Source of the DNA: Candidatus Bathyarchaeota archaeon | GTDB taxonomy: Archaea; Thermoproteota; Bathyarchaeia; Bathyarchaeales; Bathycorpusculaceae | DNA length: 64,000 nt | NCBI GenBank assembly: GCA_018396675.1 | Contig: JAGTQX010000010.1 | Coordinates: forward strand, 1-64,000 | Direction: 5' to 3' | In this document: piece by piece, positions 7,229 to 64,000 of the stretch | Layout of the letters: each line of letters starts with the position of its first letter | How positions within the stretch are numbered: position 1 is the stretch's first letter | The notes under the pieces: generated by a model | The model's database searches: none | Told to the model about the DNA's origin: nothing | Seen by the model: only the letters and a program-made list of their open reading frames with translations | Translations under genes and position numbers: made by a program

Positions 7229-8270
7229 AATACTACATATGCTTGCCCCATCAAAGAAAACAATATGGGAACTTCTGGAAAACTTTAATGCTCCATTGAA
7301 AGATTTCATTGTTTCTTTAAAAAACCTTTTAGAAAATGGATTAGTTGCCTCGGACATGGAGGGGTTCTATCTCACTGAAAAGGGCAAAAAAGAGGTTAAC
7401 CCAGAAAGTTTAAAATTTAAAAGCAAAATATGTCCGGAATGCTCTGGAAAAAGGGTGATTTTCGAAGGAAAGTTTAAGGAAATCCTAACAGAATTTAAAC
7501 GTATAACAGAGAAACGACCACCGCCGACAATCGATTTTTTCCAAGGTTATATGCAGGAGCGGGATGTAATATCAAGGGTTGCGTTGATGCATAATTACAA
7601 TGATTTAGATGGAAAGGAAATTATCTTGATGGGTGATGACGACTTATTAAGCATAGCCCTATCCTTAACAAAACTTCCAACACGAATCGTGGTTTTAGAC
7701 ATTGATAAAAGATTAGGTGATTTCCTAAAGGAAGTTAATAGTGAATATGGCTTCACAATAGAGTTCAAAGAGTATGATGTTGCACATCCGTTACCAACCG
7801 ACGTTATCGGAAAATTTGACGTTTTTTCTTCGGAACCACTTGAAACGCTAACAGGGTTGAAGGCGTTTATTTGCAGGGGTATAAGTTGCTTAAAAGAAAA
7901 TGGAGTTGGATATTTTGGACTGACGGTTCTTGAAGCTTCTTACAAAAAATGGTTGGCTGTTCAGAAGCTTTTGATGAAGATGAATTGTGTAATCACAGAC
8001 ATTGTTCAAGGGTTTTCGGCTTATCCAATGGATTATGGCAACGTAAACTATGAAAAATTCGTTTACGATATAGGTTTTGTAGTTGATAAAAACCCCGGAA
8101 TAAACTGGTATAAATCTTCGCTTTTCAGGTTCGAAGTGTTGGGGAAACCTAAACTCCTGGTAAAACCCGACGAGTATGTGAGGGTGAAACCTGTTGACCC
8201 AGAAGAAGATTTAACACATCCATCTTTGTATCCGTCAATTCGGAAGAGATTCGCCAAAAGGTGTTCATAA
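7206..8270 (+). CDS. bpsA: N4-bis(aminopropyl)spermidine synthase (branched-chain polyamine synthase); start TTG 7206 or ATG 7239
   Basis: wHTH N-terminus plus DQGYMQERDVISR-like region, LMGDDDLLS, VVLDIDKRLGDF; DUF43 family; next to speD. Confidence 0.88.
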   Translation: MREKAETRILHMLAPSKKTIWELLENFNAPLKDFIVSLKNLLENGLVASDMEGFYLTEKGKKEVNPESLKFKSKICPECSGKRVIFEGKFKEILTEFKRITEKRPPPTIDFFQGYMQERDVISRVALMHNYNDLDGKEIILMGDDDLLSIALSLTKLPTRIVVLDIDKRLGDFLKEVNSEYGFTIEFKEYDVAHPLPTDVIGKFDVFSSEPLETLTGLKAFICRGISCLKENGVGYFGLTVLEASYKKWLAVQKLLMKMNCVITDIVQGFSAYPMDYGNVNYEKFVYDIGFVVDKNPGINWYKSSLFRFEVLGKPKLLVKPDEYVRVKPVDPEEDLTHPSLYPSIRKRFAKRCS

Positions 8271-50233: not shown

Positions 50234-51613
50234 TTGGGTGCATTAACAAGAGCTGCTAAAAATATTTCGCGAAGAAAGATGCGCACATTACTGGTTGTAA
50301 TCGCTTTAGGTTTTTCAATAGCAATCATGATTTCCATACCCGCAGGAATAATGGCAAATCAGGAATCTATGCAGACGCTAAGTGAAAACCTCACCAGCAC
50401 AATCACTACAATGCAAGAGGAAATCAACAAAACAGCAACATTAATTGAATGCAGCACAACCCCAAATCAGGGTATGCAGACATTTAGGCCGGGTGGTGGC
50501 TTTTTCGGAGGTGTGAATGAAACTTTTATAAACGAATCCATAGTGGATGAAATATACTCTATTAACGTTAGTGGTGTTAGAGTCGTAAAGGATGTTATAC
50601 CTTCACTTGAGAAATCATCCAGCGAAAACATTACTGAAACGATAACTACACCATTTGGAAACCGCACAGTGTACAGGTCAGCTTATACCATAATTGGCGT
50701 CTGCCTCAACTCCTCAATCATCAGCAGCTACTCGATACTGCCAACAAACATAACAGCAGGAGAAAATCTTTCAGAAGGTGACAGCTGCTACGTTCTTATA
50801 AGTTCAAACTTGACGGAGTACTTTGAAGCAGGCGTCGGCGACACCATAACTATTAACGGCGAACTCTTCACGGTGAAGGGAATATTTGAATCCTCAAGCC
50901 AAACCCGAACCGTTTATATGAACATTTCCGACGCGCAGAGAATCACGGGTCTTACTGGAGAAATAAGCAAGTTATACGTGTATGTGGTGGATTCCTCCTA
51001 TGCAACTCAAGTGGCTGACGTTATAAAAGCGGCGTATCCAGAACTTTACGTGACAAGCTACCAAGACCGTTTAGAAAACCTTCAACAAATGCAGAGCATG
51101 TACACGCAAACTTTGAGCAACGCCGAATCCTCAATTGCTCAAGCGCAATCAACAGCAACTCAAGTAATAATCATAGCTGTTGCAGCCACAAGCCTAATTG
51201 TCCTATTCGTAATGCTGTACTCAGTTAGAGAAAGAACAAAAGAAATTGGAATCTTGAAAGCTATAGGTTTCAGCAACTGGAACGTCATGAGCCAATTCAT
51301 GCTTGAAGGTGTGCTTATAGGCCTAATAGGCGGAGCCACTGGAGTCTTAATTGGAAGCACAATTGCGCCGTTCTTGTCATCGTTTTTAATTCCTCAAATA
51401 AACTTGTTCGGTGGAACACAAAGACCGCAGGCTTCAGTGCAGATGCCATCAACAAACATTGTTGGGCTTCAAAGTTACACGACTGTTACACTGAGTCCAG
51501 AGCTTATTCTTCTGGCGCTTGGCGCGGCTGTTCTTCTCGGCGCAATTGGAAGTTTATACCCTGCTTGGAGAGCCTCTAAAATATCGCCAATCGAGGCGTT
51601 GAGGTATGAATGA
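50234..51613 (+). CDS. MacB/FtsX-type ABC permease
   Basis: N-terminal TM, large periplasmic-like domain, C-terminal GVLIGLIGGATGVLIG...YPAWRASKISPIEALRYE. Confidence 0.9.
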   Translation: MGALTRAAKNISRRKMRTLLVVIALGFSIAIMISIPAGIMANQESMQTLSENLTSTITTMQEEINKTATLIECSTTPNQGMQTFRPGGGFFGGVNETFINESIVDEIYSINVSGVRVVKDVIPSLEKSSSENITETITTPFGNRTVYRSAYTIIGVCLNSSIISSYSILPTNITAGENLSEGDSCYVLISSNLTEYFEAGVGDTITINGELFTVKGIFESSSQTRTVYMNISDAQRITGLTGEISKLYVYVVDSSYATQVADVIKAAYPELYVTSYQDRLENLQQMQSMYTQTLSNAESSIAQAQSTATQVIIIAVAATSLIVLFVMLYSVRERTKEIGILKAIGFSNWNVMSQFMLEGVLIGLIGGATGVLIGSTIAPFLSSFLIPQINLFGGTQRPQASVQMPSTNIVGLQSYTTVTLSPELILLALGAAVLLGAIGSLYPAWRASKISPIEALRYE

Positions 51614-52394
51614 GACTGTTTTGGAAACGGAGAAACTGGATAAAGTTTACAAGCTTGGAGGACGCAGCATCCGCGCACTTTCAGATGTCAACTTGCAAGT
51701 GAAGAAAGGCGACTTTGTCTCAATCATGGGGCCGTCTGGTTCTGGCAAAACAACACTGCTGAATATACTCGGCTGTCTCGACAAACCGACAAGTGGGAGA
51801 ATAATCCTTGACGACGTTGACGTTACCACTGTTCCAGAGAAAGAACTGTACAAGATTAGACGGTACAAGATTGGATTTGTCTTCCAGACTTTTAATTTAC
51901 TTCCGTACTTGAGCGCCATTGAGAATGTTGAACTTCCAATGGAGGGCACTGGAAAATCGAAAGAGGAAAAACTCAAAAGAGCTCGAGAATTGTTAAAGCT
52001 TGTTGGGTTGGCTGAAAGAGAAAACCATAAACCGCTCCGCTTAAGCGCAGGAGAACAACAAAGAGTCGCAATAGCCCGTGCCTTGGCTAACGGTCCATCC
52101 ATACTATTGGCAGACGAGCCTACTGGCAACCTAGACGCCAAAACAAAATACGAAATAGTTAGACTTTTGGGAAAATTGAACACGGAGCATGGAACAACAA
52201 TTGTGATGGTTACTCATGACAACGCCATCGCCTCACATGCGCGCAGAGTACTTTTTATCAACGATGGAAAGATGTTGTCGAAAGAAAAAATGGGCTTGTT
52301 CGCAAAAGAAAAATTAACGTGCCCAGCATGCGGCAGAGAGATTCAAATAACCCATGTTTTTTGTCCTCACTGTGGCAGAAAACTGTCAAATTAA
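51606..52394 (+). CDS. LolD/MacB-type ABC ATPase with C-terminal zinc ribbon
   Basis: GPSGSGKTTLLNILGCLDKPTSG, LSAGEQQRVAIARAL; C-terminal CPACGREIQITHVFCPHCGRKL. Confidence 0.93.
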   Translation: MNETVLETEKLDKVYKLGGRSIRALSDVNLQVKKGDFVSIMGPSGSGKTTLLNILGCLDKPTSGRIILDDVDVTTVPEKELYKIRRYKIGFVFQTFNLLPYLSAIENVELPMEGTGKSKEEKLKRARELLKLVGLAERENHKPLRLSAGEQQRVAIARALANGPSILLADEPTGNLDAKTKYEIVRLLGKLNTEHGTTIVMVTHDNAIASHARRVLFINDGKMLSKEKMGLFAKEKLTCPACGREIQITHVFCPHCGRKLSN

Positions 52395-54686: not shown

Positions 54687-55478
54687 ATGTTTGCAAATAT
54701 GGCAAAATCAGAAAACGTCAAAAAAGAAGAACAAGCAACAGTGGCTGAATCAAACGAGGATAAACCGGAAAAACAGGAAATCGAAAAGCTAAAATTCAAT
54801 GTAGAAAAACTGTCTGAAGAGTTAAACACTGCAGTAGCAGAGCTTAAAAGATCAATAATTGATATACGGTCAGCAGTAAGCGAAATTGAAAATCCATTCA
54901 ACCTTTTACGTGTAATATCAAGCGAAAAAGACTTGAAAAAATTGAATGGTGAAAGACTCCCGCCTGGAGTTAAATCCCTAGTACTTGGAAAACCTGAAGA
55001 AAAAACAGAAGAAAGAACAGAAACATTACCAAAACCCACTGCGCCTTTAATGCCTGCACCAGTTTTTGCTCCTGACAAAGAAAAGGAAGCTTTTGAGGCG
55101 AAGGAAACCGCGGCGGCAACAACAGAAGAAGAGAAACAGCGCCCGAAAAGCGAGTTACCTCCATCTGGAACTGTTTACTTGGACTGGGTTTGGTCGCTTC
55201 TCGATTTAGGATTCTCGCCTGACGACATAAAACAACTTTCAGAATCTTATGAACGGTTAGGCTTCTTGCCAGAAGGCTCCAACGAACAAGTTTATTCCCT
55301 AGCAATAGCGGCTGAAAAAGCAAAATCTAAGGGACTCACAAGAAGCAAACTTTTGCTTAACATGTATAAAGCATCAGCAATTTCTGGGATGTGCATAGGT
55401 TTAGAGGACGTGAAACGGTTGATTTCAATAGCTGAAGGACGAGTTAGAGAGGCAAAAAATGCGAAAAGGGTTGCCTAA
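54687..55478 (+). CDS. Archaellum accessory protein, ArlC/D/E-like
   Basis: Coiled coil, C-terminal YLDWVWSLLDLGFSPDDI; first gene of archaellum operon. Confidence 0.55.
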   Translation: MFANMAKSENVKKEEQATVAESNEDKPEKQEIEKLKFNVEKLSEELNTAVAELKRSIIDIRSAVSEIENPFNLLRVISSEKDLKKLNGERLPPGVKSLVLGKPEEKTEERTETLPKPTAPLMPAPVFAPDKEKEAFEAKETAAATTEEEKQRPKSELPPSGTVYLDWVWSLLDLGFSPDDIKQLSESYERLGFLPEGSNEQVYSLAIAAEKAKSKGLTRSKLLLNMYKASAISGMCIGLEDVKRLISIAEGRVREAKNAKRVA

Positions 55479-55978
55479 TGGGATTTTCTCTAACGCTATC
55501 GCACATCATAATGGTTATTTCCTCTGTTTGTTTAGCGAGCGCCTTCTCCGTATATGCGTTCTACACGGGAAACCTTGTTCAAAACGAATTGGCGCAAAAT
55601 GTTAACGACTACAAGAGAATAGTCAGCATGCAGCTGGAGATAGTCTACGCAACGATAGACAACTCTACAAACCCGCCGCACTTTGTAATCTACGCCAAAA
55701 ACATCGGATACCTTTCACTTACAGACTTCACCTTCTTGGACGTTTACGTCGGCGAATACGGAAAAGCACAATTGTTCCTTTACAACGCGGCGGCAGAGGC
55801 TGGAAGTGGACAATTTAAAGTGACCACAGCCAATGGAGACCTCGTATGGGAGCCGCGTGAAACAGTCACAATACGCGCTTATCCATTAAACAATGTGAAC
55901 GGAACAATTTTCGAAGCAAAGCTAGTGCCTTCAAAGGGAATAGGCAGCAGTTACCTCTTTCCAGCGCCGCCGTCTTGA
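55478..55978 (+). CDS. arlG: Archaellum protein ArlG/FlaG-like
   Basis: Single N-terminal TM + beta domain; upstream of arlF-like/arlH. Confidence 0.65.
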   Translation: MGFSLTLSHIIMVISSVCLASAFSVYAFYTGNLVQNELAQNVNDYKRIVSMQLEIVYATIDNSTNPPHFVIYAKNIGYLSLTDFTFLDVYVGEYGKAQLFLYNAAAEAGSGQFKVTTANGDLVWEPRETVTIRAYPLNNVNGTIFEAKLVPSKGIGSSYLFPAPPS

Positions 55979-55997
55979 GGAGAGGAGGATTCAAGGC

Positions 55998-56522
55998 ATG
56001 GGGTTTTCGGTTACAATAACATCATCCATCATTCTAATAGCTATGTTCGCAATATCAACCTCTTTTCTGATAACGCTTTTCCAAGGATTAAAGGAGATAT
56101 CTTACATTGCTGAAAATTACGTTAGCCGTAACAGAGAAAAACTGGATGTTGCCTTGCAGTTGGAAGTGTATCCGGTCAACGCTACTTTATGCAACATAAC
56201 GGTAAGAAACACGGGGTATAACGTTATTTTCCTAGAAGACCAGTCAGGCTTCAAATGGAACACTATACTGCTTTCTTATGGCAATGAGTCTTTCTGGGTT
56301 TCCTACTCCATTGAGGATTATGAAGTTTTAGAAGTTAAGGTTTCAGGAACAAGCTATACCTTTACGCCAAACAGCCACAACTACATAGAGTCTGGAGAGG
56401 AAGCACTAATCTTTTTTAACATTCCAAGCGGAGCGCCAGAAATTCCCGTGAACGGGCTGGTTTCAGTTGTTTTTGTTACGCATTATGGAGTTGCAGCCAA
56501 AGCGGAGGCGGTTAGAGAATAA
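55998..56522 (+). CDS. arlF: Archaellum protein ArlF/FlaF-like
   Basis: MGFSVTITSSIILIAMFAISTSF, beta domain; directly before arlH. Confidence 0.7.
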   Translation: MGFSVTITSSIILIAMFAISTSFLITLFQGLKEISYIAENYVSRNREKLDVALQLEVYPVNATLCNITVRNTGYNVIFLEDQSGFKWNTILLSYGNESFWVSYSIEDYEVLEVKVSGTSYTFTPNSHNYIESGEEALIFFNIPSGAPEIPVNGLVSVVFVTHYGVAAKAEAVRE

Positions 56523-57223
56523 TGAAAGTTGTAAGTTTAGGAATTACGGAACTTGACAGAGACCTTGGCGGCGGAATTCCTCATCCAAGCCTCATATCTA
56601 TTGAAGGCGATTATGGTTCTGGAAAAACCATTTTTGTTCAGCAAATAGCAAGCGCAATGCTCAACACTGGATTACGAGTCTGCATCATAACAAGCGAAGC
56701 AACGGTTAAGGAGTATTTGTCAATGATGCGTTCCGTGAAACTCGACGCAGACGGCTATTACCTTTCAGGACAGCTTAACATTTACCCGCTACACATTGAA
56801 GGCGGAAGATGGAACGACTTCCTAAGCTCATTCTTTCTAAAAGTAACCTCAAACTTTCTCGAATTAAAAAAGCAATACTATGATGCCGTGATAATCGACA
56901 GTCTAAGCGTCTTAACAGTGAACACTCCAAGATCTGAGTTCCTCACTTTCGTTACAAGAATGAAAAACCTGGTGTCAGACGACAGGACGGTTGTTGCCAC
57001 TTTTCACCCAGAATTTCTTTCAGAAGACACAATCATGAAGTTGAGAGCCAGCTCAGATGTTTACCTCGTGCTGAAAAATGCTAGTATCTCCGGAATCGAC
57101 GTCAAAGTGCTGAGAGTTGTAAAGCTTTGGGGAGTAAGCGGCGAAAGAAAAAGCGCGATAACTCTTGAAATTAACCCGCAAATCGGCTTAAGAGTCATGC
57201 CGTTAAGCGGAGTAAAAGTGTAG
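56522..57223 (+). CDS. arlH: Archaellum ATP-binding protein ArlH/FlaH
   Basis: ELDRDLGGGIPHPSLISIEGDYGSGKTIFVQQ. Confidence 0.92.
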   Translation: MKVVSLGITELDRDLGGGIPHPSLISIEGDYGSGKTIFVQQIASAMLNTGLRVCIITSEATVKEYLSMMRSVKLDADGYYLSGQLNIYPLHIEGGRWNDFLSSFFLKVTSNFLELKKQYYDAVIIDSLSVLTVNTPRSEFLTFVTRMKNLVSDDRTVVATFHPEFLSEDTIMKLRASSDVYLVLKNASISGIDVKVLRVVKLWGVSGERKSAITLEINPQIGLRVMPLSGVKV

Positions 57224-57232
57224 GAGGAAACA

Positions 57233-58918
57233 TTGTTGGCGAGTAAGCTAAAGCTGAACTTGAACCAAAAACTTCCAAGCTTCAAGCTGTCGTTGTTCAA
57301 GAAAGAAGAAGAGGAGAAAAAAGAAGATGAAATATGGCCATTCAAGCGGGAAATATGTGAAACGTTAGAAGAAGCATTAACCGCGCATCCATACTTGAAG
57401 ACGTATCTAGATTCGTTGCCAGACAAGCCCAGATACACTTTAAACATTGACTTGGAAGAGTACAGCAAAGAAACCAACATTCTATACCCGCTGGGCTTAG
57501 GAATATACACGCATATCGATATTGGCGGAGAAATTGGAAGGTACAATCTGATAGAGCCTGAAAAACCGGACAGTAAACTTTTAGACGAACTTGAAGCCGC
57601 TGTCGCAATGCTTGTTGGAGACAAGGAGTATAAGGAAAACAAAGAAAACGTTTTAGCTTCACTTTTTAGACAAGCCATCAAAAAGAAAATGGTTAAAATC
57701 CCCAAAGACAGAGACGAAGGCGCAATACTTTACCATTTTCTGCGGGAAAAAATTGGACACGGCTTTCTAGACGGTTTCTTGGCTGACCCATGGCTGGAAG
57801 ACGTGAGTATCCCAGGAGCAGGCAAAGTTTTCGTTTATCACAAGATGTTTGGCCATCTTGAAACCAACGTTGATGTGACAAAGGAAGAGATTAACAGGTT
57901 GCTGCGGAATATATCAGAGAGATATGGTAAAGTCTTAAGCTACACACATCCGATAATAGATATACACTTGCCTGACGGTTCCAGGTTCAACATAGTTTAC
58001 GGCGAAGACATAAGCCTCAGAGGAAGCAATTTTACGATTAGAAAGTTTCCAAAAGAGCCAATTTCGGTGGCGCAGTTAATCCGTTGGAAAACTTTTTCGC
58101 CGGAGTTAGCCGCATATCTCTGGATGCTTTTCGAAGTTGGAGTTTCAGCAATGGTTTGTGGAGAAACAGCTTCAGGAAAAACCACGACTCTAAACGCTCT
58201 CACCGCTTTCATAAACTCTGACTCAAAAATAATAAGCATAGAAGAAACTCCAGAAGTGAACCTGTTCCATAAGAACTGGATTAGAGAAGTAACGCGGCTG
58301 CATACTGGTGTTCCAGTGACAATGTTTGACCTTCTAAAAGCCGCTTTGAGGCAGAGGCCGGACTACATAATTGTAGGTGAAATTAGAGGCGAAGAAGGCA
58401 GAGTGGCCTTTCAAGCTATTGAAACGGGGCACCCGGTTTTGTCTACAATGCACGCTGGAACATTAAGTCAGCTTTTCCAGAGGCTTACTTCGCACCCCAT
58501 CGATGTTCCCAAAACGCACATTGATGGTTTAAACTTGGCTGTTTTCCAAGCGAGAATGGAACGAGGAAAACGGTTCATACGGCGAGTCACGTCAATCAAC
58601 GAGATAATAGGATACGAGTCTGATGAGGGCAGGCTTAATTATTTGCCAACTTTCATTTACGACGCGGACTTGGACAAAATAAGGTTTATGGGTTCAAGCT
58701 TTCATCTGGAGTCAAAAGTTCTCACATTTAGGGGATGGGGCAAAGAAAGATTAAGGGAGCTCTACGACGAGCTGAAAGCCAGAGCAGAAATCCTCACTTT
58801 CCTATCCGAAAACTTCCCAACATACACGGATGTTTGGAAAACATGCATTGCTGTCCGGGAAAGAGGTGTCTGGGAAGTTTATCGTAAAGTCAAAGAGATG
58901 AAGATTCCTTGGGAGTGA
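57233..58918 (+). CDS. arlI: Archaellum assembly/motor ATPase ArlI/FlaI
   Basis: VCGETASGKTTTLNAL, ETPEVNLFHKNWIREVTRL, LRQRPDYIIVGEIRGEE. Confidence 0.95.
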   Translation: MLASKLKLNLNQKLPSFKLSLFKKEEEEKKEDEIWPFKREICETLEEALTAHPYLKTYLDSLPDKPRYTLNIDLEEYSKETNILYPLGLGIYTHIDIGGEIGRYNLIEPEKPDSKLLDELEAAVAMLVGDKEYKENKENVLASLFRQAIKKKMVKIPKDRDEGAILYHFLREKIGHGFLDGFLADPWLEDVSIPGAGKVFVYHKMFGHLETNVDVTKEEINRLLRNISERYGKVLSYTHPIIDIHLPDGSRFNIVYGEDISLRGSNFTIRKFPKEPISVAQLIRWKTFSPELAAYLWMLFEVGVSAMVCGETASGKTTTLNALTAFINSDSKIISIEETPEVNLFHKNWIREVTRLHTGVPVTMFDLLKAALRQRPDYIIVGEIRGEEGRVAFQAIETGHPVLSTMHAGTLSQLFQRLTSHPIDVPKTHIDGLNLAVFQARMERGKRFIRRVTSINEIIGYESDEGRLNYLPTFIYDADLDKIRFMGSSFHLESKVLTFRGWGKERLRELYDELKARAEILTFLSENFPTYTDVWKTCIAVRERGVWEVYRKVKEMKIPWE

Positions 58919-60495
58919 AACCGATAAAAATATCCAGAGATTCCGTTGTTGCTGTTCTACTGCTGGTTCCGTCGCTTCTTTTTGCACTCTACTACTTGTC
59001 TGCGGGCAAAATGCTTGAGGCCATCATCATTTTACCAATAAGCATCGGCGTTTTAATGTTTCTTAAATACATGTCACGTAAACGTTACCCAAAAAAGGTG
59101 GATTTCATGTTAACGACTGTTGTCTTCCACCTGTACGGCTTGTCTCTTGGAGAAACTTCGCCAGATGACCTTGTCAACACAATCGCAGAAAACAGGGAAT
59201 ACGGCTTTTACAGCAGAATTTTTCAAAAAATTCGCAGTTTAGCCAAAGACTTCGGATACGGCATTACAAAGGCTACAGCTCACGTTGCAGACATCGTAAA
59301 GCCACCGTTAAAGGACATTCTTGTGCGTTTTACAAACGTGTTTTCAAGCGTGGAGCCTAAAGGCTACTTGGAGATGGAGTCTTCAATGCTGATTGAAGAA
59401 TATTCAGGTTATTACACGCGTGCGCTTGAAACCTTGAAAACTCTTGGAGGAATCTTTACGTCGTTCCAAAGCGTAACCGTGTTTCTAATAATGACCATAG
59501 TGATTATGGCGATTTTCATGATTGACCCAAGCGCAATAGCTTTCGGCTATTTTATCGCTGCGTTCGCCGTCATAATGATGTACGTTCTTTTCAGGGCGTC
59601 ATCTCCAAGAGAAAACCTTGTTTACATAGGGAAGTATCCGCCAAAACTTTATGTGGCCATGAGATGGAGCCTAATCGCTACTGGAGCCTCCTCAACATTG
59701 CTTGCAGTTCTTCTATACTTTTCTAAAGGTCCCGCCTTCGCTTTTATGGCGTTAGGTTTAGGCATGATTATGCCTGGAATTTTTGGGTACATGCTTGAAA
59801 AGCATGTTAACAAGATTGACAGAAATTATCCGACTTTTTTGAAGGCTTTGGGTGAAAACTTGGCTTCAACATCAGATTTGAGGGCTGCTTTTTCTTATAT
59901 AGTTCAGATGGAACTAGGCCCTTTTAAGAAGCTTGTTAAAGAGGCTTTGGCAAGGTTGAGGCTTGGGATAGGGCATGAGCAAACTTTTGAAACGCTTTCT
60001 TCTGAGGCTGCTTCCTATCAAGTGCATATTAGTAACAGGATATTTTTGGATTCTATGAGTAGAGGAGCGAATCCTCTTGAGATAGGCAACGCTTTGGGAA
60101 ATCGTGTTGTCAAGTTTATCGAGTTTCGGAAATCTAGGGATGTAACTGCGAAGGGTTTCCAAATGATAATAATGGTTATGCAGCCGCTCACCGTTGTCTT
60201 GTTGGTTGTTGTGCAAGTGCTTGCAGAGTTTATGTCCCAGTACCTAGTTAATCTGCCATATTTTGGATTTAACGCTATTCCGATACCAGTAATTGAAACT
60301 GGGAACATAATTCTAGTTTTCATAATGGCTGTTGTTAACGCTTTGACAATCAAAGAGGTTTCAGCTGGTTACTGGGGAACATTTTTCCTCAACTTGGGGA
60401 TTTTGTTGATTGTCAGCGGTATAACGTGGATGGCTGCTGGAGTCTTTATTGAAATGGCTTTAGGCTCGATGCCGAGCATCGAGTTACCTGTGTAA
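58909..60495 (+). CDS. arlJ: Archaellum platform protein ArlJ/FlaJ
   Basis: Multi-TM with T2SSF-like repeats; overlaps arlI. Confidence 0.92.
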   Translation: MGVKPIKISRDSVVAVLLLVPSLLFALYYLSAGKMLEAIIILPISIGVLMFLKYMSRKRYPKKVDFMLTTVVFHLYGLSLGETSPDDLVNTIAENREYGFYSRIFQKIRSLAKDFGYGITKATAHVADIVKPPLKDILVRFTNVFSSVEPKGYLEMESSMLIEEYSGYYTRALETLKTLGGIFTSFQSVTVFLIMTIVIMAIFMIDPSAIAFGYFIAAFAVIMMYVLFRASSPRENLVYIGKYPPKLYVAMRWSLIATGASSTLLAVLLYFSKGPAFAFMALGLGMIMPGIFGYMLEKHVNKIDRNYPTFLKALGENLASTSDLRAAFSYIVQMELGPFKKLVKEALARLRLGIGHEQTFETLSSEAASYQVHISNRIFLDSMSRGANPLEIGNALGNRVVKFIEFRKSRDVTAKGFQMIIMVMQPLTVVLLVVVQVLAEFMSQYLVNLPYFGFNAIPIPVIETGNIILVFIMAVVNALTIKEVSAGYWGTFFLNLGILLIVSGITWMAAGVFIEMALGSMPSIELPV

Positions 60496-60692
60496 TATTC
60501 CATTTTTGCAGATGCTTGTTGTCGCTTGACAACTGTGATGGTGGCTATTTACTTGTTGTATGTAGTGTGGATTCATATTCGGAGTTTGTATTCTGATTCG
60601 CGATTTTAAATAACGCTTTATTATGTCTTAAGACTCGCTATAGTGTTGGTGGAGGTAGTGGTGGAGTAAGTATAAGAGTAGGTGGTGGAAAT

Positions 60693-61574
60693 ATGGGAGA
60701 AAAACCAAACATCAAATGCCAAAAATGCGGGTACGAATGGCACACACGGTCAAAGCTTAAAATGGTGACATGCCCTTCATGTAACCAAAAAATTCCAAAC
60801 GTTGCATTGTACAAACGCCGCCGTTTAGTAAAGGCGCTTGTGCATCAGAAACGTGCAATTATAGGTTTAGAAGCCGCAATAGTTCTTATAGCCTTCGTCA
60901 TAATTGCCGCAGCCTTCAGCTTCATGGTCGTCAACCAAGGCTTGTACGCCACGGAAAGGGGCAAAGTCGTAATTCAAGAAGGTTTAAAACAAGCGAGCAC
61001 ACCCTTGACGATAGACGGAACAACGTTTGTCAGAACGACTCCTGACGGAAAAGCAGTAAACGTCATAATAATTCCAGTAAAAGCCTTCGGAGTGAAATTC
61101 GTAGCCGTTGGGAGAAACCAAACAGTCATAGTCCTACGCGTTGGCGAAAGAGCGTGGGCAAACGCCTATTTGGGCGTGTTATACACGGGCTATCCGAATG
61201 GAACATATTATTATACTGATGATGAGACGTACGACCCAACTGGACAGGAATTCGACGACTTTGTAGGTTTCAGATACGCCAATCAAACCACTGTAGGAGA
61301 AGAACGCAACGTTTACGTAAACGGAACATACGCCAGCGGATATAGTGAGGGGTTGTTCACTGGAGCGGTTCTTGCTATTGCTTATAGCAACGGCGACGAA
61401 GCATTAGATACGAATGAGAAAGGCTTCCTAATAATAACGCTATCGGAGGACGCTGCAGCTCCTGCCAGATCACAGATAAACATTGAGATAAGGCTTGAGA
61501 AGAGTGCTACGCTTTCAGTTGAGATTACGATACCGGAGTCAATGCCGAAGAACACGTATGTGCCAATATTCTAG
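60693..61574 (+). CDS. arlB: Archaellin (type A) with N-terminal zinc ribbon
   Basis: CQKCGYEW...VTCPSC followed by class III signal HQKRAIIG/LEAAIVLIAFVIIAAAFSFMVVNQGL. Confidence 0.88.
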   Translation: MGEKPNIKCQKCGYEWHTRSKLKMVTCPSCNQKIPNVALYKRRRLVKALVHQKRAIIGLEAAIVLIAFVIIAAAFSFMVVNQGLYATERGKVVIQEGLKQASTPLTIDGTTFVRTTPDGKAVNVIIIPVKAFGVKFVAVGRNQTVIVLRVGERAWANAYLGVLYTGYPNGTYYYTDDETYDPTGQEFDDFVGFRYANQTTVGEERNVYVNGTYASGYSEGLFTGAVLAIAYSNGDEALDTNEKGFLIITLSEDAAAPARSQINIEIRLEKSATLSVEITIPESMPKNTYVPIF

Positions 61575-61586
61575 GAGGAGAAAGTC

Positions 61587-62210
61587 ATGCGGAGAATAAC
61601 GAGAAACAAAAGGGGTATTGTTGGCATCGAAGCCGCCATCGTCCTCATAGCCTTTATTATAATTGCTGCAGCGCTCAGCTATGTAGTTATCAACATGGGT
61701 TTCTATACAACGCAAAAGACGAAAGAAACAATGCAGGGAGGCCTCGACGAGTCTTTAACCGCCCTGCAACTTGATGGAATAGTGACTGCAAAAACCGACA
61801 GTTCCGGGCACATAGAATATTTAGCCATTCCAGTGAAACTTTCTGCTGGTCGTGCTGCTATAGACCTTGGTGAAAACGCGGTTGTGGTTTCGGTATATCT
61901 TCAAAACGCAACGCTTATGAACGTGTATCAGGGCGCTACTCCGGCGAATGAAACAACTTGGGATGCTCTGATCAGTGCTCTTGGTTTAACTAGCGAAGGC
62001 GCAAAGTTCGCCATATATAATGGGAATAATAACACGGTGATTGAGTCAACCGAAAAAGCGTTTCTGATAATCTGCCTCGACGAGCAACATAGGATTAGTG
62101 ACTACGAAACTGTAAAGATTGAGGTCAGAGGTGCAAAGGGCGCCGCTTTGACGGTTGTACGAACTGCTCCAGGCGGCATGCTTCCAGATTCGTTTGTAGA
62201 CCTGGGTTAG
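61587..62210 (+). CDS. arlB: Archaellin (type B)
   Basis: RNKRGIVG/IEAAIVLIAFIIIAAALSYVVINMGFYTTQKTKETMQ. Confidence 0.93.
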   Translation: MRRITRNKRGIVGIEAAIVLIAFIIIAAALSYVVINMGFYTTQKTKETMQGGLDESLTALQLDGIVTAKTDSSGHIEYLAIPVKLSAGRAAIDLGENAVVVSVYLQNATLMNVYQGATPANETTWDALISALGLTSEGAKFAIYNGNNNTVIESTEKAFLIICLDEQHRISDYETVKIEVRGAKGAALTVVRTAPGGMLPDSFVDLG

Positions 62211-62403
62211 CCCCGCTTTCCCATTTTTATGCTGCGTCATTGCCGTCGGTGGTTTTCGTTGTTTTTCTTTGTCGGATTTCGAATTGAATTCGATATTTTA
62301 TTCATTTTTTGAATCAAAATTAGCAATTTTACCAATCTAAATTATCATTTCATAACTCTTAATATAAGAACAAGCATAACTCAAAAAGCACCAAAAAAGG
62401 AAG

Positions 62404-63045
62404 ATGAAAAAAATGAACTGGAAGAAAACTTTGATGAAACTAGTAAAACAGAAACGTGCCATGGTGGGTCTAGAAGCTGCAATAATCCTCATAGCCTTCG
62501 TCATCATCGCAGGCGCCTTCAGCTTCATGGTCATCAACCAAGGCTTATTTGCAACAGAACGAGGCAAAACAGTAGTTCAAGACAGCCTAAGACAAGCAAG
62601 CACACCCTTGATAGTGGACGGAAGCATATACCTAAATGCTGACTCATCAACAACTATTAACGCTATTGTCATCCCATTAAGGGCTTACGGTGTTAAGTAT
62701 GTGGCGCTCGGAGAAGACGCAACCTCTGTTTCCCTTCAAGTGGCTGGAAGCGCTTGGCCAAACGTATATGAGGGCATAAACGGAACATTTACTACGAGCG
62801 ACAATTTCGGCGACCTTGTTGCCAACGTAACTACTGGTCACGCGGCTCTGTTCATCCAAAACAGTAATGGAGACGACTCTTTGGATTCCAACGAGAAAGG
62901 CTTTCTTGTTATATCTTTGAGTGCTTCTGCAAATGCTAGAGACCACATAGTTGTTGAAATCAAGCCAGAGAAAGCTGCGCCGTTGACAATTGACTTCTAC
63001 GTGCCCGAATCTTTGCCAAGCGGCTGGATAACGGTGGCTGGCTAA
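62404..63045 (+). CDS. arlB: Archaellin (type A')
   Basis: KQKRAMVG/LEAAIILIAFVIIAGAFSFMVINQGLFATERGKTVVQ. Confidence 0.93.
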   Translation: MKKMNWKKTLMKLVKQKRAMVGLEAAIILIAFVIIAGAFSFMVINQGLFATERGKTVVQDSLRQASTPLIVDGSIYLNADSSTTINAIVIPLRAYGVKYVALGEDATSVSLQVAGSAWPNVYEGINGTFTTSDNFGDLVANVTTGHAALFIQNSNGDDSLDSNEKGFLVISLSASANARDHIVVEIKPEKAAPLTIDFYVPESLPSGWITVAG

Positions 63046-63046
63046 A

Positions 63047-63691
63047 ATGTTCGCAAAAAAACTGTTTAAAAACCGGAAAGGCATTGTCGGTGTAGAAGCC
63101 GCCATCGTTCTCATAGCCTTCCTGATAATCGCCGCGGCATTAAGCTACGTGGTCATAAACATGGGCTTCTACACAACACAAAAAACAAAAGAGACAATGC
63201 AGACAGGCCTCGATGAATCATTAACAGCTCTACAACTGGACGGCGTGGTCACAGCGAGGACCAACGACACCTCACCTCACATATTGTATATCCTTGTCCC
63301 AGCGAAGCTCTCAGCGGGTAGAGGCGCAGTAGACCTAAGCACAAGCTCAGTCGTAGTGTCGGTGTATTTGCCAAACGCTACTTTAATGAATATATATGAA
63401 GGCTCAAATCCATCAACGGATGATGTGGCATGGGACGATTTGGTTAGCACTTTGTCGCTGAGTGATAAACAAGCCAAGTTCGCAATCTATAATGACGACG
63501 GCGACACTGTGCTGGAATCGAACGAAAAGGCTTTCCTGCTGATACGCCTAGACTCAACAGACGCACAAAGCATGCTAAGCGAATACCAAACAATAAAAAT
63601 TGAAGTCAGAACTGCAAAAGGCGCCGCACTAACAGTAATACGCACAGCCCCAGGCGGCTTAGCGGCAAACTCTTTCGTCGACCTAGGCTAA
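63047..63691 (+). CDS. arlB: Archaellin (type B')
   Basis: KNRKGIVG/VEAAIVLIAFLIIAAALSYVVINMGFYTTQKTKETMQ. Confidence 0.93.
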   Translation: MFAKKLFKNRKGIVGVEAAIVLIAFLIIAAALSYVVINMGFYTTQKTKETMQTGLDESLTALQLDGVVTARTNDTSPHILYILVPAKLSAGRGAVDLSTSSVVVSVYLPNATLMNIYEGSNPSTDDVAWDDLVSTLSLSDKQAKFAIYNDDGDTVLESNEKAFLLIRLDSTDAQSMLSEYQTIKIEVRTAKGAALTVIRTAPGGLAANSFVDLG

Positions 63692-63795
63692 TAAAGGCTT
63701 TCCCCACTCCACCACCCACCTCCACCATTTTTTCTACAACCCACTACCTTTTTATTTCGTCAAACATTTCCCAAAAAAAGAATGTTTTTGAAAAG

Positions 63796-63906
63796 CGCCG
63801 GGGGTGGGATTTGAACCCACGCGGCCCAAAAGGGCCACAGGCTTTTAGGCGCTTCCAAGTTTTTTCGTCTCCAGGCCTGCTCCCTACCTGACTAGGAGAC
63901 CCCGGC
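63796..63906 (-). tRNA. tRNA-Ser(GGA), class II, with ~25-nt anticodon-loop intron
   Basis: Acceptor GCCGGGG/CCCCGGC, G73, long variable arm ggcccttttgggcc, anticodon stem CAGGC/GCCTG enclosing a 32-nt loop starting CTGGAG. Confidence 0.85.
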
Positions 63907-64000
63907 TGTGTTGTAGGGTTAATTATGTGATTTTTTATGCGCGCCCTATTATGTTTAAGCATTGTTTTGCGGGTGTTTTATCGTTTTCTCACGCGGTTAA

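Follow-up and report, generated by a model that had tools for sequence, protein, structure and literature searches.

The window, as we call the whole 64,000-nucleotide stretch of DNA that was analysed, holds an archaellum locus in which the machinery genes lie upstream, and three archaellin genes without a ribbon (61587, 62404, and 63047) lie downstream, of an archaellin gene whose product begins with a predicted zinc ribbon (Table 1). The latter gene (60693-61574, forward strand) is a single open frame of 293 codons with an ATG start, its translation matches exactly that given in a first-pass annotation of this DNA, and its ribbon cysteines are spaced C9-x2-C12-x14-C27-x2-C30 (CxxC-x14-CxxC), in the sequence context KPNIKCQKCGYEWHTRSKLKMVTCPSCNQK. 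PF01917, the archaellin domain, was matched over residues 57-277 (E 2e-14, 54.7 bits against a cut-off of 29.5), and TIGR02537, which covers the class III signal and the hydrophobic filament helix, was matched at 28.3 bits (cut-off 20). Considering also the cleavage motif described below and the fact that it is encoded with the arlF-J machinery, the protein is an archaellin by every criterion tested except leader length. Among the machinery genes, Pfam matches were obtained for arlF, arlG, arlH (KaiC), and arlI (T2SSE), and the arlC/D/E-like gene and arlJ, which have no Pfam match, were named by their position and by conserved synteny in related loci. The four archaellins (60693-63691) make up two A-B pairs (A with the ribbon, B, A', and B'), and, by analogy with the M. 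villosus filament, which consists of two alternating archaellins (PMC8821640), the pairs of the window may form A-B heteropolymer filaments. Beyond them, on the minus strand at 63795-63910, the sequence resembles, by eye, a tRNA gene that has either an intron or a long variable arm; ARAGORN reports none there.

Table 1. Features of the archaellum locus, with positions in the window and the evidence for each.
Feature	Position	Strand	Evidence
Archaellum machinery	54687..60495	+	arlC/D/E-like 54687, arlF 55478, arlG 55998, arlH 56522, arlI 57233, arlJ 58909
Inferred TATA-type promoter element TTTATTA	60616..60622	+	Conserved in 14 aligned upstream regions and the decayed G177 copy; role inferred
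Probable 5'UTR, C-free (A/G)GT-triplet tract	60645..60692	+	6-9 RGT per 50 nt in 14/14 ribbon archaellins
Zinc ribbon (by motif and model), residues 1-36 (C9, C12, C27, C30)	60693..60800	+	Alignments; pN/pS 0.136; AlphaFold pLDDT 81-88 (residues 11-40)
Linker and ordinary basic class III leader, residues 37-55	60801..60857	+	FlaFind motif in 13/14 orthologues; linker pN/pS 0.516; predicted cleavage after A55 (KRA|IIG)
Mature archaellin (type A), filament helix and globular domain	60858..61571	+	PF01917 E 2e-14; TIGR02537
Archaellin B, short leader, without ribbon	61587..62210	+	PF01917; tree
Archaellin A', 19-residue leader, without ribbon or RGT tract	62404..63045	+	PF01917; tree; upstream triplet count
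Archaellin B', short leader, without ribbon	63047..63691	+	PF01917; tree

Archaellin leaders typically have 6-12 residues (PMC4307647), and 26 residues were considered unusually long for the leader in O. meridianum (PMC12448462). The leader of the ribbon archaellin has about 55 residues (51-57 across orthologues), and in this it departs from a usual, not a defining, property of archaellins. The first-pass annotation had put about 58 residues ahead of the cleavage site; the long, ribbon-bearing leader was upheld, but the site was relocated three residues earlier, to KRA55|I56. Indeed, KRA55|IIG58LEAA, with G58 as the conserved +3 glycine, fits the published motif [KRDE][GA][ALIFQMVED][ILMVTAS] (PMC4307647), as do 13 of the 14 orthologues (FlaFind motif), while the later site G58|L59 fits it in no orthologue, so that the mature protein is predicted to start with IIGLEAAIVLIAF. 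The A' archaellin at 62404, to which a short leader had also been ascribed, lacks the ribbon as claimed, but its leader has 19 residues up to the same site and not a dozen; hence, the ribbon archaellin looks like a 36-residue ribbon placed before a complete, ordinary leader. Prepilin leaders stay in the cytoplasm and are removed by a peptidase with its active site on the cytoplasmic side (PMC10191384), and leaders may differ greatly in length and still be processed by these enzymes (PMC4307647). Of the 14 genomes with the fusion, 13, including the window's own, encode a peptidase A24 family member that exceeded the cut-off; the match is absent in G046, perhaps through incompleteness of this genome.

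Protein searches of relatives and of genome contigs, together with profile searches covering the window's family (91 genomes) and class (257 genomes), identified the in-frame fusion in 14 genomes, the window's own among them. In the family, archaellins were found in 13 genomes, each of which has a single ribbon archaellin, and the 14th fusion belongs to G182, from another family of the same order; wherever enough of the locus was available, the ribbon was on the archaellin encoded nearest the motor genes and on no other. When 73 archaellins were placed in a tree with their leaders left out, the 14 ribbon archaellins constituted one group, requiring one change (SH-aLRT 99), with short-leader A-type archaellins of G182 nearest to it. 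Outside the window's family and G182 no ribbon fusion was found in an evenly spread phylum sample of 398 genomes (151 of which matched, mostly through archaellin helices), the archaellins of the other sampled families had no ribbon, and the long-frame candidates G432, G393, G391, G566, G467, G505, and G247 were rejected as fusions for want of one. Moreover, G177, which belongs to the same family as G182, retains the promoter region, the 5'UTR tract, the ribbon, and the linker (L105, minus strand, about 7700-7870), but it reads ACG where the start codon would be, a stop codon comes after the linker, and of the archaellin just out-of-frame remnants are left. Judged by these remains, it is a decayed fusion, and its reading as a free ribbon without archaellin was rejected. 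From the tree, the phylum sample, and this decayed copy, it follows that a single gain of the ribbon is most likely and that its loss can accompany that of the archaellum.

The in-frame ribbon ahead of a class III signal reported in the first-pass annotation is therefore real, since the frame was as read and the same fusion is present in 13 other genomes; the search for N-terminal ribbons on related archaellins that it had recommended yielded the 14 fusions described above, and its view that the ribbon is specific to one copy agrees with the three other archaellins of the window, which have none. It had also named two observations that would speak against a true precursor. The former, a ribbon encoded as a separate gene in homologues, was found adjoining an archaellin in none of the 257 genomes of the class. 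The latter, translation from the in-frame GTG at 60840, would mean that initiation occurs within the linker and that the ribbon region is left untranslated, and we regard it as extremely improbable. That GTG is present, but it has no SD-like motif and is not a common feature of orthologues, which share no internal start at all, whereas an ATG, GTG, or TTG is conserved a few codons ahead of the ribbon in all 14 fusions, the frame is open in the 14 genomes, and the pN/pS of the ribbon is low (0.136); consequently, this and any other internal start were rejected.

In the 14 ribbons, the four cysteines and many non-cysteine residues are invariant. Among 12 aligned sequences, pN/pS was 0.136 for the ribbon, 0.516 for the linker, 0.073 for the signal and helix, and 0.248 for the globular domain, with pS near 0.7 throughout, meaning that synonymous divergence is saturated. 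The ribbon is under stronger purifying selection than the globular domain and the linker is loose, its length between ribbon and membrane varying by several residues among orthologues. For the 57-residue leader, AlphaFold2 with 14 sequences predicted strands ordered as in a ribbon, and a helix that starts at residue 37 (pLDDT 81-88 over residues 11-40), in agreement with two CxxC knuckles, invariant in the 14 sequences, in a three-stranded ribbon. The full-length model was poor outside the ribbon (mean pLDDT 52), and for this reason no interface was read from it. By motif and model, residues 1-36 are a zinc ribbon of no named family, with putative zinc binding. Sequence profiles matched it below cut-off only (RNA polymerase subunit P, HypA, and generic ribbons), and HypA, Zn_ribbon_4, Zn_ribbon_8, PRK14890, and RNA polymerase subunit P were all rejected as families on this ground. 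Likewise, a Foldseek search of the ribbon model against the PDB returned weak matches only (best E 0.46), including RBR/IBR zinc domains, zinc ribbons from RNA polymerase and the ribosome, and HVO_2753. In family f15 (L155-L161; e.g., G160, G161, and G166), a protein of about 218 residues, by eye a NuoE-like subunit, starts with a similar ribbon; this type of ribbon is reused as an N-terminal module elsewhere. In the window, an ABC transporter ATPase (51606-52394) with an extra C-terminal zinc ribbon (CPACGREIQITHVFCPHCGRKL) was also observed, adjoining a MacB-like permease at 50234.

Upstream of the ribbon archaellin, the inferred TATA-type element lies about 27 nt ahead of the RGT tract, which is for this reason probably the whole 5'UTR. 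Within the C-poor 50 nt that precede the start codon, each of the 14 ribbon archaellins has 6-9 RGT triplets, the 14 being related genes and so not independent events for the pairing of ribbon and tract; the maximum is 4 among about 60 ribbon-less archaellin genes, which include paralogues of the same clusters and a few genes fetched twice, and 5 among the other long ORFs of these loci (mean about 1.8, with a few ribbon genes still included). In its own genome, the tract occurs once when up to 3 mismatches are allowed. The exact sequence varies from GGTGG-rich near the window to AGTAGT-rich in G105, G117, and G182, and is still recognizable; no consistent RNA structure was found in this 5'UTR, and a G-quadruplex reading was rejected by visual judgement; the last three genomes keep the RGT triplets without GG runs. 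A 5'UTR of RGU repeats specific to the ribbon archaellin leans towards a regulator, one of the roles that the first-pass annotation had listed.

Free-standing ribbons of the same type were also seen in other genomes of Bathyarchaeia. In G035 (L114, minus strand), one precedes an ORF (1431-2489) that is by eye CRISPR cas1-like, and upstream of it stands ACTACTACCACTACTACT, which is an RGT tract in reverse complement. In G114, near-identical ribbon genes with RGT/RGC triplets upstream lie at four contig ends (L108, which is C22; L109, which is C21; C7; and C23), as expected of a repeated, possibly mobile, element. A general link between the ribbon type and RGT tracts, suggestive in G035 and G114 and absent in G230 and G115, was set aside, the cases being too few.

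In the mechanism that we propose, the ribbon would fold in the cytoplasm and remain on the cytoplasmic face when the archaellin inserts in the membrane, and the prepilin peptidase would cut after KRA55, giving one basic zinc-ribbon microprotein of 55 residues per matured subunit. Once free, the ribbon would act as a small regulator that signals archaellin maturation. It would most likely bind nucleic acid and exert feedback on the expression of archaellins or of motility genes, its own unstructured RGU-repeat leader being the first candidate target. As read from the sequences, the anatomy of the ribbon-bearing precursor and the selection on it are close to certain, and release of the ribbon into the cytoplasm by cleavage is likely. 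A regulatory role of the released peptide is the best single reading and is put forward tentatively; that its target would be its own 5'UTR is doubtful, and still more so is the complete chain, in which maturation frees a leader otherwise discarded, which binds its own RGU mRNA leader (or DNA) and so matches archaellin output to export capacity. A similar logic is known from the export-coupled feedback of bacterial flagella, with the difference that the regulator would here be made from a signal peptide.

The released regulator was judged best on account of the motility effects of Haloferax zinc-finger proteins, described below, and of the exclusive pairing of ribbon and RGU tract (14/14 ribbon archaellins and 0 of about 60 others). 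This reading further draws on the 14 in-frame fusions of single origin, on the stronger constraint on the ribbon than on the globular domain, on the retention of the cleavage motif with its +3 glycine and of a peptidase A24 gene, and on the weak resemblance of the predicted ribbon to nucleic-acid-associated zinc ribbons and HVO_2753. In addition, a linker that tolerates change between a ribbon and a cleavage site that do not is expected if both parts act separately after cleavage. Against it, the 14 genes are of common ancestry and may have inherited ribbon and tract jointly without function, the tract may do no more than enhance the translation of an abundant protein, free ribbons of the same type do not all have RGT tracts (G230 and G115 are without), a role in cis would produce the same conservation, and G046 lacks a peptidase match.

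The main rival, somewhat unlikely in our view, is precisely such a role in cis, in which the ribbon, while attached, would bind a partner in the cytoplasm (the ribosome or SRP, ArlH/ArlI, ArlC/D/E, or the peptidase), dock the precursor there, and so give this subunit a set place in the order of insertion or use, such as the first, at the base of the filament. The cut peptide would then be waste. Restriction of the ribbon to the archaellin nearest the motor genes, its basic character beside the membrane, and a conservation that suits protein contact all accord with docking, which nevertheless leaves the ribbon-specific RGU 5'UTR unaccounted for and fits poorly with a linker so loose in sequence and length and with neighbouring archaellins that manage without a ribbon. 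The tract could instead be a translation enhancer for a highly expressed subunit and the ribbon unrelated to it, either with some other trans or membrane role or as part of a precursor that persists partly uncleaved as a membrane component. The C-free, unstructured nature of the tract would fit this, as would the GGTG/GGAGG motifs by which the tracts of near relatives can pair with 16S rRNA; distant orthologues, however, retain the RGT triplets without GG motifs, the other archaellins, abundant too, have no such tract, and the cleavage site is kept, so that we consider this improbable. Weaker still is the case for a pro-domain gated by zinc or redox state, whose folded ribbon would block cleavage or assembly until zinc loss or thiol oxidation and make maturation condition-dependent. 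CxxC pairs are natural zinc or thiol switches and the ribbon lies 19 residues before the scissile bond, but invariance of all four cysteines and many other residues goes beyond the needs of a switch, the peptidases tolerate very different leader lengths (PMC4307647), and no link to zinc or redox genes was seen. Both the gated pro-domain and the uncleaved membrane component are less likely than the released regulator or the docking role.

In type IV pilin-like proteins, the leader peptide is regarded as a throwaway part. Of the four archaellin copies, just one has the conserved folded domain and the RGU-repeat 5'UTR, and its leader therefore very probably does something. Should the released ribbon prove to be a regulator, archaeal gene expression would be directly coupled to the maturation of the filament, and a search for other functional leaders would be worthwhile; the ribbon archaellin offers a concrete handle on motility control in Bathyarchaeia.

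Compared with known archaellin precursors (PF01917, ArlA/ArlB, with a class III signal cut by ArlK/PibD), the ribbon archaellin has the same domain, filament helix, cleavage motif, and archaellum cluster, and differs in a leader of 51-57 residues that contains a zinc ribbon. The open literature, searched without subscription papers and preprints, yielded no account of an archaellin or prepilin leader that carries a domain, nor any archaellum study in Bathyarchaeia. The free-standing CxxCGYxW...CPxC ribbons of Bathyarchaeia (G035, G114, G115, and G230) share the motif and 44-51% identity with the window ribbon over the aligned part, but they are unfused to archaellin and lie outside archaellum loci as far as seen. 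Zn-ribbon proteins of arCOG07264 and arCOG06883 have likewise been linked to archaeal type IV pilus loci (PMC4858521), one with the ribbon at the N-terminus of a membrane protein; by their description, they are set apart as separate genes that do not encode filament subunits. ArnA of Sulfolobus, a repressor of the archaellum composed of a zinc finger and an FHA domain (PMC6509490), provides a C4 zinc finger in archaellum control, but this is a RanBP2-type finger on an FHA protein; the ribbon archaellin has no FHA match, and kinship to the ArnA finger was unsupported. The zinc-finger microproteins of H. volcanii, such as HVO_2753, are free-standing genes without significant sequence match to the ribbon, which is part of a filament subunit. 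Like it, they are small zinc proteins with two CxxC motifs, HVO_2753 appears among the weak Foldseek matches, and, in Haloferax, 6 of 16 deletion mutants of small zinc-finger proteins lost swarming, 5 of these 6 making more biofilm (PMC6562870).
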